Part shown: in pieces, positions 19,942 to 49,072 of the stretch
Position numbering within the stretch: the first letter of the stretch is position 1
How the letters are laid out: each line of letters starts with the position of its first letter
DNA from: an uncultured Actinomycetes bacterium
Lineage (GTDB): Bacteria; Actinomycetota; Actinomycetes; Nanopelagicales; Nanopelagicaceae
DNA: 64,000 nt
Direction: 5' to 3'
Assembly: GCA_937876245.1 (NCBI GenBank)
Contig: CALEGP010000010.1
Span: forward strand, 1-64,000
The notes under the pieces: generated by a model
What the model was told of the DNA's origin: nothing
The model's database searches: none
Seen by the model: the letters and a program-made list of their open reading frames with translations, nothing else
Made by a program: the position numbers and the translations under genes

Positions 19942-22116
19942 ATGAATCCGGTTCTAGATGGTTTGAGCAAGGCTTTACTTGCCCACCATCCTGATGTGTC
20001 GCTTTCGGAATTGGAGCGAGCTTATGTTGTCGCCGAAAAGGCACATGAGGGCCAACTTCGTAAATCAGGAGAGCCCTACATAACGCACCCGCTTGCGGTC
20101 GCAGAGATTCTTGCAGATATTGGTTTAGATCTAGAGACAATAGTTGCAGCCTTATTGCATGACACAGTCGAGGATACGAAATATTCCTTGGCTGCGGTGC
20201 GCAAAGATTTTGGCAAGGAAGTTGCATCATTGGTCGATGGTGTTACGAAGTTGGACAAGTTGAGTTATGGGCCAACAGCAGAGGCCGAAACGCTACGCAA
20301 AATGGTCATTGCTATGTCGCGCGACATCCGAGTCTTGGTCATTAAATTGGCAGACCGTTTGCACAATGCCAGAACATGGAAATATGTATCTGCTGAATCA
20401 GCCCAGCGTAAAGCGCGTGAAACTTTAGATATTTATGCTCCGCTGGCTAATCGATTGGGTATGAGCGCGATTAAATGGGAGTTAGAGGATCTCTCCTTTA
20501 AGACTCTGGAACCCAAAAAATATGACGAAATTGAGAGATTGGTTCTGGAGCGAAATCCGGCACGCGAGAAAATGACGCTCGAGGTTTTGGATTTGGTGGA
20601 GAGCGACCTCGCGCTAGATGGCATAGAGGCGAAAGTTCTTGGAAGACAGAAGCACCTGTATAGCGTTTATCAAAAGATGGTTATCAGAGGGCGGGATTTT
20701 AACGATATTTATGATTTAGTTGGAATCAGAGTGCTGGTTGGAAGTGTTCGAGATTGCTATGCGGTGCTTGGGGCAATTCACGCAAGATGGAGTCCGATTC
20801 CAGGAAGATTTAAAGACTACATCGCTATGCCTAAGTTCAACCTTTATCAGTCTTTACATACGACAGTGATCGGGCCAAACCGAAAGGCCGTTGAAATCCA
20901 GATTAGAACTTTAGATATGCACGCGAGAGCCGAATATGGAATTGCGGCGCATTGGAAATATAAGCTGGCAGCGGTTGGGGAAAATGCCAGCGATAAACCG
21001 GAGATGATGTGGCTGAAGCAACTTCACGAGTGGCAGCAAGAGACTACTGATGTCGGGGAATTTCTCGACACTCTTCGGTATGACTTGCGCACCCCAGAAG
21101 TTTTTGTATTCACACCCAAAGGCAGTGTCATTGCTCTGCCTTCGGGTTCAACTCCGGTTGATTTCGCATACGCCGTTCATACTGAGGTTGGAGAAAGATG
21201 TGTCGGCGCTAAAGTGAATGGAAAATTGGTTCCCCTTGAATCGATACTCGGAAATGGCGATGTGGTTGAAGTCGTTACCAACAAGAGTCCCACTGCCGCA
21301 CCAAGTCGTGATTGGTTGAATTTCGTTTCTTCCCCAAGAGCGCGCTCCAAAATAAAGGCCTGGTTCTCCAAGGAGCGCAAAGAGGAGGCGGTCGATGCGG
21401 GGCGGGAGTCGATAGCGAGACAGATGCGCAAAGCAGGGTTGCCTCTTCAGAAAATTTTTGCTGGCCATGCATTCCTGGAACTTTCTCACGATTTACATTA
21501 TCCAGATATTGAAAGTATGTATGCCGCAGTCGGTAACGGCCATACCAGTGCTCAGTTTGTTATCGAGAAGCTCGTGTCCAGCAGGAATTTACACGAACCG
21601 GATACCGAAGTAGAAAGTCATACTCCACAGATCATTCATACTTTTGATAAGACTCGAAGAAGTACTTCCGGTGTCGATATAGAGGGCGTTGAAGACGTTC
21701 TGATTAAGTTGGCTAGGTGTTGCACGCCTGTTCCTGGAGATGAAATCATCGGCTTTATAACTAGGGGGAGTGGGGTATCGGTCCATAGAACCGATTGCAT
21801 AAATGTTACAGATTTAAAATTGAACCAGGGTGATCGAATGGTTGGGGTTAAGTGGAATCACAATTCGAAAGCCCTGTTCTTGGTAAATATTCAGGTAGAA
21901 GCTCTAGATCGATCACGATTGCTCTCCGATGTAACACGCACTCTCTCGGATCATCACGTGAATATCCTTAATGCATCTGTAAATACTTCTAAAGATCGCA
22001 CGGCAATATCTAGATTCACTTTTGAAATGGCGGATGCATCCCATTTAGATGCGGTGTTGGCTAGTGTGCGCTCTATTGAAGGCGTATATGATGTTTATCG
22101 GATCATCAATAACTGA
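19942..22116 (+). CDS. relA: Bifunctional (p)ppGpp synthetase/hydrolase, RelA/SpoT family
   Basis: 724-aa long RSH enzyme. HD hydrolase domain (about 30-190): PYITHPLAVAEIL and LLHDTVEDT retain the metal-binding His/HD residues, so hydrolysis should work. Synthetase domain (about 230-350): RFKDYIAMPKFNLYQSLHT. TGS domain near 390-450 (FVFTPKGSVIALPSGSTPVDFAYAVH), zinc-finger-like region RCCTPVPGD near 590, and C-terminal ACT. It is the stringent-response enzyme. The apt gene often found between secF and relA is absent. Confidence 0.97.
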   Translation: MNPVLDGLSKALLAHHPDVSLSELERAYVVAEKAHEGQLRKSGEPYITHPLAVAEILADIGLDLETIVAALLHDTVEDTKYSLAAVRKDFGKEVASLVDGVTKLDKLSYGPTAEAETLRKMVIAMSRDIRVLVIKLADRLHNARTWKYVSAESAQRKARETLDIYAPLANRLGMSAIKWELEDLSFKTLEPKKYDEIERLVLERNPAREKMTLEVLDLVESDLALDGIEAKVLGRQKHLYSVYQKMVIRGRDFNDIYDLVGIRVLVGSVRDCYAVLGAIHARWSPIPGRFKDYIAMPKFNLYQSLHTTVIGPNRKAVEIQIRTLDMHARAEYGIAAHWKYKLAAVGENASDKPEMMWLKQLHEWQQETTDVGEFLDTLRYDLRTPEVFVFTPKGSVIALPSGSTPVDFAYAVHTEVGERCVGAKVNGKLVPLESILGNGDVVEVVTNKSPTAAPSRDWLNFVSSPRARSKIKAWFSKERKEEAVDAGRESIARQMRKAGLPLQKIFAGHAFLELSHDLHYPDIESMYAAVGNGHTSAQFVIEKLVSSRNLHEPDTEVESHTPQIIHTFDKTRRSTSGVDIEGVEDVLIKLARCCTPVPGDEIIGFITRGSGVSVHRTDCINVTDLKLNQGDRMVGVKWNHNSKALFLVNIQVEALDRSRLLSDVTRTLSDHHVNILNASVNTSKDRTAISRFTFEMADASHLDAVLASVRSIEGVYDVYRIINN

Positions 22117-46217: not shown

Positions 46218-47152
46218 TGTTCAACTTTTCTACCAATGTCGGGGGAGCCGAATTCAGTAATCCGATTTTTACTGCAAGTGGCTGTGCTGGGTCAGGCAAA
46301 GAATTGAGCCAGTTCTTTGATATCTCACGTTTAGGGGCGATAGTCACAAAGTCCATCATGATTAAGCCGCGATCTGGGCGCGCAACTCCAAGGATGGCTG
46401 AAACACCGAGCGGAATGCTTAATTCAATTGGACTTCAAGGCCCTGGTATTGATCAATTTTTAGCAATTGATGTCGCATGGCTGAGGGAGCAGGGCGTAAA
46501 GATTATCGTGAGCATTGCTGGTGAAAGTGTGGAGGATTATGCAGTTCTCGCCCGCAAACTCCGTTCTGTTCCAGGCATTAGCGCGCTCGAGGTAAATATT
46601 TCTTGTCCCAATGTGGAAAATCGAGGTCAAGTTTTTGCTTGTCACCCGAAGACAGCAAGAGCTGCGATCGAAGCCGTTAGACGCAACGTCGGCGGTGAGT
46701 TGCCAATCATTGCAAAACTTACCCCGGATGTAACAAGTATCGTAGAGATTGCCGAAGAAGTTATTGCAGCAGGCGCAGATGCCTTGGCTTTGATCAACAC
46801 AGTCCTGGGCATGGTGATAGATACAAATACGATGAGGCCGAAGCTGGCTGGCAAAACTGGGGGTCTTTCTGGGCCGGCAATCAGACCAATTGCAGTTAGA
46901 GCAATTTATCAAATACATGAAGCGATGCCTCATGTCAAAATTCTTGGTATGGGTGGCGTGACTAGCGGGCGAAGCGCTTTGGAATTGATTTTGGCCGGGG
47001 CCTCAGCAATTTCGGTTGGAACAGCAACTTTTGGCGATCCTACAGCGGCGATGAAGATCAAGGATGAATTAGAAAAAGAGTTAATTGCTCACGGATTTGA
47101 TTCAGTACGCGAGGCTGTCGGGTATGCCCACCGCGATGAAGGGAATTTGTAG
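46217..47152 (+). CDS. pyrD: Dihydroorotate dehydrogenase, class 1B catalytic subunit
   Basis: 311 aa, no N-terminal membrane helix. FMN barrel with NPIFTASGCAGSGKEL, KPRSGRATPRMAETPSGMLNSIGLQGPG, VNISCPNVENRG including the catalytic Cys, and GMGGVTSGRSALELILAGASAISVGTA. Paired with PyrK; together NAD-dependent, unlike the quinone-linked class 2 enzyme of mycobacteria. Confidence 0.95.
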   Translation: MFNFSTNVGGAEFSNPIFTASGCAGSGKELSQFFDISRLGAIVTKSIMIKPRSGRATPRMAETPSGMLNSIGLQGPGIDQFLAIDVAWLREQGVKIIVSIAGESVEDYAVLARKLRSVPGISALEVNISCPNVENRGQVFACHPKTARAAIEAVRRNVGGELPIIAKLTPDVTSIVEIAEEVIAAGADALALINTVLGMVIDTNTMRPKLAGKTGGLSGPAIRPIAVRAIYQIHEAMPHVKILGMGGVTSGRSALELILAGASAISVGTATFGDPTAAMKIKDELEKELIAHGFDSVREAVGYAHRDEGNL

Positions 47153-47850
47153 TGAAACCCTCACCGATTATATTGGCCTTGGACACCAAGGATTTAGGGG
47201 TTGCAAAGAATTGGATCGAGGCAACTAACTCCTCGATCGATATTTACAAAATTGGCCTCGAATTTTTTCTGAAATTTGGCAGTCAAGGTCTTTTGGATTT
47301 GGCGAGCGCCGGAGATTTTCAGGTCTTTTTGGACCTTAAATTGCACGATATTCCTAATACTGTAGCTGGCGCAGTTTCTTCGGTCGCGCAACTCTCTCCA
47401 AAGTTTCTAACTATTCATGCGAGCGGTGGTGGAGAGATGATTAGGGCCGCTGCGTTGGCAGCTCCAGAGATTTCGATCACTGCTGTAACTATTCTGACTT
47501 CACTTTCAGATCACGAGCTCGGGGAAATTGGTTTTGTTGGGGGTGCTAAAGAGAGGGCAATTGGTTTAGCAAAATTAGCCCAGGCAAGTGGGGCCAGGTC
47601 GATTGTTTGTTCGCCCTTCGAGGCAGCAGAGATTAGATCAGTTCTAGGAGATGGAATAGAAATAATTACACCGGGGATTCGCCCGGAAGGTAGCGATCAC
47701 GGAGATCAAAAGCGTGTGATGAACCCGGCGCAAGCAATCGCTGCTGGAGCTAGTTACTTAGTGATAGGAAGAGCAATAACAGAGCTTTCAAAAATCTCGT
47801 TGAAAGCCATGGGTGAAGGTGCAAGACAAATTTTAGAAAGCATTGAATAG
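47152..47850 (+). CDS. pyrF: Orotidine 5'-phosphate decarboxylase
   Basis: 232 aa, GTG start. Short class I form: LALDTKD at the N-terminus, FLDLKLHDIPNTVAGAV with the catalytic Lys/Asp set, and TPGIRPEGSDHGDQKRVMNP. As I recall, mycobacteria and streptomycetes use a longer divergent type, so this form is notable. Last step of UMP synthesis; pyrE is missing from the operon. Confidence 0.95.
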   Translation: MKPSPIILALDTKDLGVAKNWIEATNSSIDIYKIGLEFFLKFGSQGLLDLASAGDFQVFLDLKLHDIPNTVAGAVSSVAQLSPKFLTIHASGGGEMIRAAALAAPEISITAVTILTSLSDHELGEIGFVGGAKERAIGLAKLAQASGARSIVCSPFEAAEIRSVLGDGIEIITPGIRPEGSDHGDQKRVMNPAQAIAAGASYLVIGRAITELSKISLKAMGEGARQILESIE

Positions 47851-47853
47851 CGC

Positions 47854-48735
47854 ATGGCTAATATGCCGCCCAAACTATCCGATTCCCAGAGATTAGCGGC
47901 TAGCGATAAAGCGGTTCAATCCAGACGAGAACGGGCGGATGTTAAAGAGAGATTGAAATCAGGATCGCTTGGGATATTTGATGTCATAAATGATCCGAGA
48001 GAGTCAATCCAACGTATGCGGGTGAGGGAACTTCTGGATGCAGCTCCAGGTGTCGGAGTACGGCGTGCCTTTTCTATAATGAGCCGGGCAAATATTTCTA
48101 AGACGCGTAGAATTGGCGGTCTTGGAATTAATCAACTTCAGAATTTAAGAAATGAGATGCTTTTGAACAAGGTGGCAATTACAAGGGGTGCTCTAATCGT
48201 GATGTCAGGGCCAGGCGGCGTTGGTAAAAGTACGATCACCTCTTTTTTGCGAGAGCACCCATCTCTCTGGGTCAGTCTCTCTGCGACCACTCGAGAACCT
48301 CGAGAGAATGAAAAGGATGGGAGAGATTACCTATTCATTACTGATGAGAAATTTGATCAAATGATAGCCGGTGAAGAATTTTTGGAATGGGCTGAGTTTG
48401 CCGGCGCAAGATATGGGACTCCTAAGAGAGCGGTTGAACAAGCACGCGAATTAGGAAGACATGTGCTTTTGGAGATTGAGATAGCTGGAGCTAGACAGAT
48501 TCGAAAAAGCGACCCAGCGGCGTTATTGGTATTTATTTCGCCCCCATCCTGGGAGCAATTGGTGGAACGACTAACCGCTAGGGGTACGGATTCTGCCGAG
48601 CGGCGAGCGGCGCGTTTAGCGCTAGCTGAGGAGGAGATGGCCTGTTCTGGCGAGTTCGACGAGGTGCTGATTAACCACCGAGTCGAGGAAGTAGCCTCAG
48701 CACTGCTATCCTTGGCCACTTCGAGGGCTAAGTAG
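47854..48735 (+). CDS. gmk: Actinobacterial integration host factor fused to guanylate kinase
   Basis: 293 aa in one uninterrupted frame. Residues about 1-105 match mIHF, the actinobacterial nucleoid protein (LSDSQRLAASDKAVQSRRERADVKERLKSG; APGVGVRRAFSIMSRANI; KTRRIGGLGINQ). Residues about 112-290 are a complete guanylate kinase: Walker A GPGGVGKST (119-127), SATTREPRENEKDGRDYLF, EEFLEWAEFAGARYGTP, EIEIAGARQI, FISPPSW. In other actinobacteria mihF and gmk are separate neighbours. Internal starts (ATG for M102, GTG V107, V116, ATG M117) could give free kinase. Three bases after pyrF. Confidence 0.92.
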   Translation: MANMPPKLSDSQRLAASDKAVQSRRERADVKERLKSGSLGIFDVINDPRESIQRMRVRELLDAAPGVGVRRAFSIMSRANISKTRRIGGLGINQLQNLRNEMLLNKVAITRGALIVMSGPGGVGKSTITSFLREHPSLWVSLSATTREPRENEKDGRDYLFITDEKFDQMIAGEEFLEWAEFAGARYGTPKRAVEQARELGRHVLLEIEIAGARQIRKSDPAALLVFISPPSWEQLVERLTARGTDSAERRAARLALAEEEMACSGEFDEVLINHRVEEVASALLSLATSRAK

Positions 48736-48793: not shown

Positions 48794-49072
48794 ATGACAA
48801 ACATGGATGGCATTACAAACCCACCGATTGATGAATTGCTAGACGCCGCTGGTTCGAAATACAGCCTAGTTCTTTATGCAGCGAAGCGAGCTCGTCAGAT
48901 TAATGCTTACTATTCACAACTAGGAGAGGGGCTGCTCGAATATGTAGGCCCACTCGTTGAAACTTATGTTCATGAAAAGCCGCTTTCTATTGCCCTTCGT
49001 GAGATCAATCAAGGTCTTCTTACTATTGAGAACCTAGAGCCAGTTGCTCTTGAAGTTACCGCTTCGGAATAA
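48794..49072 (+). CDS. rpoZ: RNA polymerase omega subunit
   Basis: 92 aa. [34 protein letters not shown] is the omega signature, with C-terminal [21 protein letters not shown] ribosome site about six bases before ATG. The 58-bp gap before it contains a T-run but no stable hairpin. Confidence 0.95.

Follow-up and report, generated by a model that had tools for sequence, protein, structure and literature searches.

Does a single reading frame that joins a nucleoid protein to an essential enzyme make one protein or two, and how did it come about? We analyzed 64,000 nucleotides of contig CALEGP010000010.1 ("the window"), from an uncultured bacterium in the family Nanopelagicaceae (Actinomycetes). 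One gene in this window encodes both mIHF, the actinobacterial integration host factor, and guanylate kinase (Gmk).

A full mIHF and a full guanylate kinase in one frame

The first-pass annotation of this DNA read a full mIHF and a full guanylate kinase, with an intact Walker A motif at residues 119-127, from one open frame. The translation and the NCBIfam domains bear this out (Table 1). The mIHF half scores 94.4 bits against actino_IHF (NF041260; cut-off 60) and matches positions 3-100 of the 102 in the model; H2TH_5 (PF22525) was also matched in this half. The kinase half scores 208.1 bits against guanyl_kin (TIGR03263; cut-off 160.45) and matches positions 1-178 of 180. NF041260 is typed as "equivalog_domain" by NCBI, which suggests that mIHF as part of a longer protein was already familiar to the curators of this model. 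Each half has one match across the whole source genome (1.52 Mb in 39 contigs, 99.99% complete).

Both halves are well conserved. In all 51 of the fused proteins that we aligned, residues G119, P120, G124, K125, R147, R150, E153, Y159, E178, and Y187, from the P-loop and the GMP-binding region, are invariant. The ratio dN/dS is about 0.03 for each of the three segments (mIHF, linker, and kinase), and thus strong purifying selection acts on both halves. The P-loop starts with GPGG in almost all of the Nanopelagicaceae kinases examined (48208-48216 in the window), with GPSA in Gmk from Mycobacterium tuberculosis, and with GPS or GPT in more distant relatives.

We modeled the fused protein with AlphaFold2, using an alignment of 51 fused relatives (mean pLDDT 94.1). 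The packing of the domains was judged by pTM alone (0.86). The kinase half of the model resembles Gmk from M. tuberculosis (1s4q; Z 25.1). The mIHF half resembles sIHF on DNA (6bek; Z 15.1, rmsd 0.9, 87 residues), aligns end to end with sIHF 4itq and mIHF 6tob, and is predicted to have the sIHF fold with its H2TH motif. Like sIHF of Streptomyces coelicolor (SCO1480; 4itq, 6bek) and mIHF (6tob), this half is a full-length mIHF domain with the H2TH fold and the RR-x-x-GLG segment. Those are free proteins of about 107 residues without a kinase, whereas the domain here has a kinase attached.

The genes upstream are carB, a gene for a PyrK-like subunit, pyrD, and pyrF, and those downstream are rpoZ, coaBC, metK, and priA. 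This agrees with the earlier placement of the gene at the end of a pyrimidine operon and beside rpoZ. mihF and gmk are already known to form an operon in M. tuberculosis, where mihF is essential and rpoZ comes after gmk; deletion of mihF is polar on gmk and rpoZ, and the expression of both had to be restored (PMC6155035). The gene order and the domains are the same in the two organisms, but mihF and gmk of M. tuberculosis (Rv1388-Rv1389) encode two separate proteins, while the genome here has one open frame.

Table 1. Features of the fused gene and its immediate neighbors, in window coordinates
Feature	Position	Strand	Remarks
pyrF	47152..47850	+	immediately upstream; its stop codon lies 3 nt ahead of the fused gene; NF001273
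Fused gene, mIHF + guanylate kinase	47854..48735	+	293 aa, 32.5 kDa; no stop in the translation
mIHF (actinobacterial integration host factor) domain	47869..48156	+	residues 6-101; NF041260
TAGAAT, -10-like hexamer, candidate internal gmk promoter	48108..48113	+	within the mIHF coding sequence
AGAAATGAG, Shine-Dalgarno-like site of the proposed internal start	48148..48156	+	the core GAG is codon 101
TTG (codon 104), at which free guanylate kinase is proposed to start	48163..48165	+	NTG kept in the genus
Guanylate kinase domain	48187..48717	+	residues 112-288; TIGR03263
P-loop (Walker A), GPGGVGKST	48208..48234	+	residues 119-127
TGCTATCCT, candidate promoter of rpoZ (extended -10-like element), within the 3' end of gmk	48704..48712	+	TGnTANNNT
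rpoZ	48794..49072	+	directly downstream; TIGR00690

Distribution and origin of the fusion

The junction is open in all 24 genus members with enough sequence for assessment. Every sequence that we checked from seven related genera of Nanopelagicaceae (g238, g239, g240, g241, g245, g248, and g250) is fused as well, and several of these relatives are single-contig genomes. The first-pass annotation had suggested looking for the same fusion in related genomes, and it is present in the genus and in these seven further genera; we found neither a stop or frameshift at the junction nor separate genes in all close relatives. Because the same open junction occurs in independently assembled genomes, including single-contig ones, the relatives refute an assembly or sequencing artefact, which has almost no chance of explaining this gene, even though one apparent fusion elsewhere is an artefact. 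That case (L148 from genome G297, family f51) has a run of N at its junction, and we rejected it as a further fusion. We also rejected recurrent fission in g238 and g239: internal stops were listed there in our search of the order, and on reading the sequences, these were the terminal stop.

The two genes are separate in genera g242, g243, g244, g247, g249, and g251, and their stop and start often overlap, as in ATGA. In the split loci L065, L066, L067 (g243), L073, L074, and L077, the stop codon of mihF and the start codon of gmk abut (TAGATG) or overlap (ATGA). Abutting or overlapping genes are likely the state before fusion. On a tree built from PyrF, RpoZ, and CoaBC, the fused genera form one clade (support 92/88), with one change between split and fused in 93% of the bootstrap trees. 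This tree points to a single origin of the fusion in Nanopelagicaceae.

Across 396 genomes from the phylum, most matches that span both halves have a stop between them. In another family of the same class (f9), all five of the sampled genomes have the fusion (L008, L144-L147). These are also in-frame, open fusions with the same domain order. But unlike the gene here, they have a longer, GC-rich linker that contains no start codon, and their origin is independent of the fusion in Nanopelagicaceae. So, the fusion arose at least twice. The junction is open in G265 (family f13, L149) too; we give this little weight, as it comes from a single fragmented genome and the junction has homopolymers. Our scan of contigs also gave a split mIHF/Gmk locus that is labelled Bacillota (L062) and two loci with Gmk only (L060 and L061).

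Our literature search found no paper that deals with both guanylate kinase and mIHF (or integration host factor), and such an absence is weak evidence. The fused gene is a variant of a known arrangement, with members already in public genomes, and not a new kind of system.

A putative internal start at codon 104

As the protein puts no demand on third bases, we looked codon by codon for those that are conserved. Codon 101 is GAG in 24 of 24 members of the genus, as compared to 12-78% GAG in the other Glu columns. Codon 104 is NTG in all 24 (19 TTG and 5 GTG). Among 283 degenerate columns in the genus, these two codons share the top conservation with three columns near the 3' end. We also counted changes on a tree of the flanking genes, using the window's genus (g1) with g241, g245, and g240 (51 rows and 281 degenerate codons). 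The median codon has 21 third-base changes, while codon 101 has 3 (rank 4 of 281) and codon 104 has 7 (rank 10 of 281). The first base of codon 104 changed 6 times across the 51 rows, with NTG kept as TTG, GTG, or ATG and the amino acid being Leu, Val, or Met. In g238 and g239 together, codons 101 and 104 are ordinary, with ranks of 55 and 56. Initiation at codon 104 would give M-NKVAITRGALIVMSGPGG..., a complete kinase of 190 amino acids (21.0 kDa).

Upstream of codon 104, genomes from g241 have sequences of the AAGGAG or GGGGAG type, with a spacing of about 6 nt. A Shine-Dalgarno (SD) match of at least 4 nt together with an NTG codon is present in the linker of 25 of 29 genomes from g241, where 300 synonymous shuffles average 11.9 and reach at most 18; for g240, the count is 8/8, versus a mean of 1.6 and a maximum of 5. 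The count for the window's genus (4/24) is not above synonymous shuffles, and most members have only the GAG. There are few or no such sites in the linkers of g238, g239, and f9. The SD duplex of the internal site has a median energy of -12.0 in g241, -8.5 in g240, and -6.5 in g1; other in-frame NTG codons give -3.2 to -3.9 (-3.9 in the window's genus). Of the 29 g241 genomes, 10 lack NTG at codon 104, and 5 of these have ATG at codon 105. The start codon used by split relatives does not align with the proposed internal start. For the window's half of the clade as a whole, these comparisons indicate a putative ribosome-binding site and start codon that are conserved beyond the protein's need, with a weak SD in the window's own genus.

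The first-pass annotation had left open that free kinase is made from internal ATG or GTG codons at M102-M117. The idea of an internal start gained support, at the TTG of codon 104 (with the GAG of codon 101 and a TAGAAT box upstream), and V116/M117 did not. M102 is the obvious internal ATG, and it is kept in only part of the genus, while codon 104 is kept in all of it. V116/M117 has the best SD score in the window, but we do not consider it to be the internal start, because a kinase begun there would lack the strand with which its fold opens (E114-118 in the model).

Candidate promoters within the coding sequence

A second constrained block, CGTAGAAT, lies at codons 85-87 (48106-48113) and includes the TAGAAT hexamer. 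TAGAAT is found in 23 of 24 members of the genus, where Arg codon use predicts 1.03. Elsewhere, it is found in 7/8 genomes of g240, 11/29 of g241, and 8/38 of g238 and g239 together. Wherever both are present, TAGAAT is 49 nt before the NTG of codon 104. TAGAAT looks like a -10 hexamer and is probably a -10 element; in f9, sites that resemble the rpoZ promoter read GTCGTAGAATTG. We hold TAGAAT as a candidate promoter only, because it has no recognisable -35; our scan for consensus promoters did not report the box. We infer that initiation and a promoter account for the nucleotide-level constraint at codons 85-86, 101, and 104, which is specific to the window's half of the clade.

The 3' end of gmk probably contains the promoter of rpoZ. 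A match to TGnTANNNT, which in the window is TGCTATCCT, occurs within the last 75 nt of 99 of 101 fused genes, with near zero matches elsewhere in these genes. Codons 284-285 have zero third-base changes on the tree. TGnTANNNT is also found in many split relatives and in some more distant actinobacteria.

One protein or two

We think it fairly probable that loss of a stop codon made the fusion, that the window's half of the clade (clade B) produces both the fusion and a free kinase from codon 104, and that the other half (clade A: g238 and g239) produces the fusion only. In the ancestor of one clade of Nanopelagicaceae, the stop codon between mihF and gmk, which were long adjacent and co-transcribed, would have disappeared in a single event. 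From the start at 47854, the ribosome would then make a two-domain protein of 32.5 kDa, and with no stop at the end of mIHF, it would do so each time mIHF is translated. Of the two domains, mIHF is predicted to bind DNA and Gmk to phosphorylate GMP, with a short and variable linker joining them. In clade B, initiation at codon 104 (48163, TTG), behind the SD-like site, would also yield a free kinase of 21 kDa, possibly from its own mRNA started at the TAGAAT box (48108). Clade B would have retained the kinase's own initiation signals, and clade A would have lost them.

Guanylate kinase is essential. The internal signals are absent from g238 and g239, so the fusion must supply all of the guanylate kinase there. 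Given this essentiality and the single fused Gmk in single-contig genomes, the fused kinase must work in clade A. In infB, cheA, and mcrB, one frame gives both a full-length and an N-terminally shortened protein. The layout that we propose is similar, with an in-frame internal start and two products that have a common C-terminus. Unlike in those genes, the short product of the fused gene would be a complete separate enzyme, and the dual products here are proposed from sequence.

Alternatively, all of the kinase might be in the 32.5 kDa protein, and the internal signals might be relics or be kept for another nucleotide-level reason. Clade A and f9 lack these signals and evidently manage on the fusion alone, and the SD is weak in the window's genus. 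But clade B shows strong constraint at codons 101, 104, and 85-86 where clade A shows none, and a relic would decay over a divergence of 50-78% protein identity. Also, the first base of codon 104 exchanges while TG is kept, which is how a start codon behaves. We consider it unlikely, though still credible, that the fusion is the only product in clade B.

The first-pass annotation raised a functional explanation instead: a kinase tethered to the nucleoid would link the GTP or ppGpp state to chromosome structure. The fusion arose at least twice and was kept, the model has a confident overall arrangement (by its pTM), RelA/SpoT is present in the genome, and GMK is a target of (p)ppGpp in several phyla (PMC6783271). 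However, genes that adjoin in an operon can be expected to fuse repeatedly in any case, the linker is variable in both length and sequence, and a start for free kinase that is kept in half of the clade argues against an obligatory tether. We view this explanation as improbable. The loss of a stop codon in an ancient co-transcribed pair is enough to explain the fusion.

A possible link to (p)ppGpp and the nucleoid

The genome's single RelA/SpoT synthetase domain is at 20641-20964 in the window, about 27 kb upstream of the fused gene. The presence of RelA/SpoT implies that a stringent response exists. HU is also present in the genome, so mIHF is not the sole nucleoid protein. The response of GMK to (p)ppGpp depends on the lid and on C-terminal contacts between subunits (PMC6783271). 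Nucleotide state and the nucleoid may be tied by regulation; our results neither support nor exclude this. More specifically, gmk might be a nested unit of transcription and translation whose internal promoter and start determine how much GMP kinase is nucleoid-tethered and how much is free, and so tie the local supply of GTP, or its inhibition by (p)ppGpp, to chromosome architecture; we give this idea little credence.

Implications

Every mIHF that is made from the fused gene would carry a GMP kinase, and none would be free. Work on the nucleoid of these bacteria must reckon with that. The hosts are abundant freshwater bacteria, and the fused clade is a large group of freshwater actinobacteria with small genomes. 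This clade is a natural experiment on gene fusion, in which the signals of a separate enzyme seem to have been kept in one half and lost in the other. It may allow tests of whether a fused essential enzyme suffices, and of how small genomes nest promoters and starts within coding sequence.
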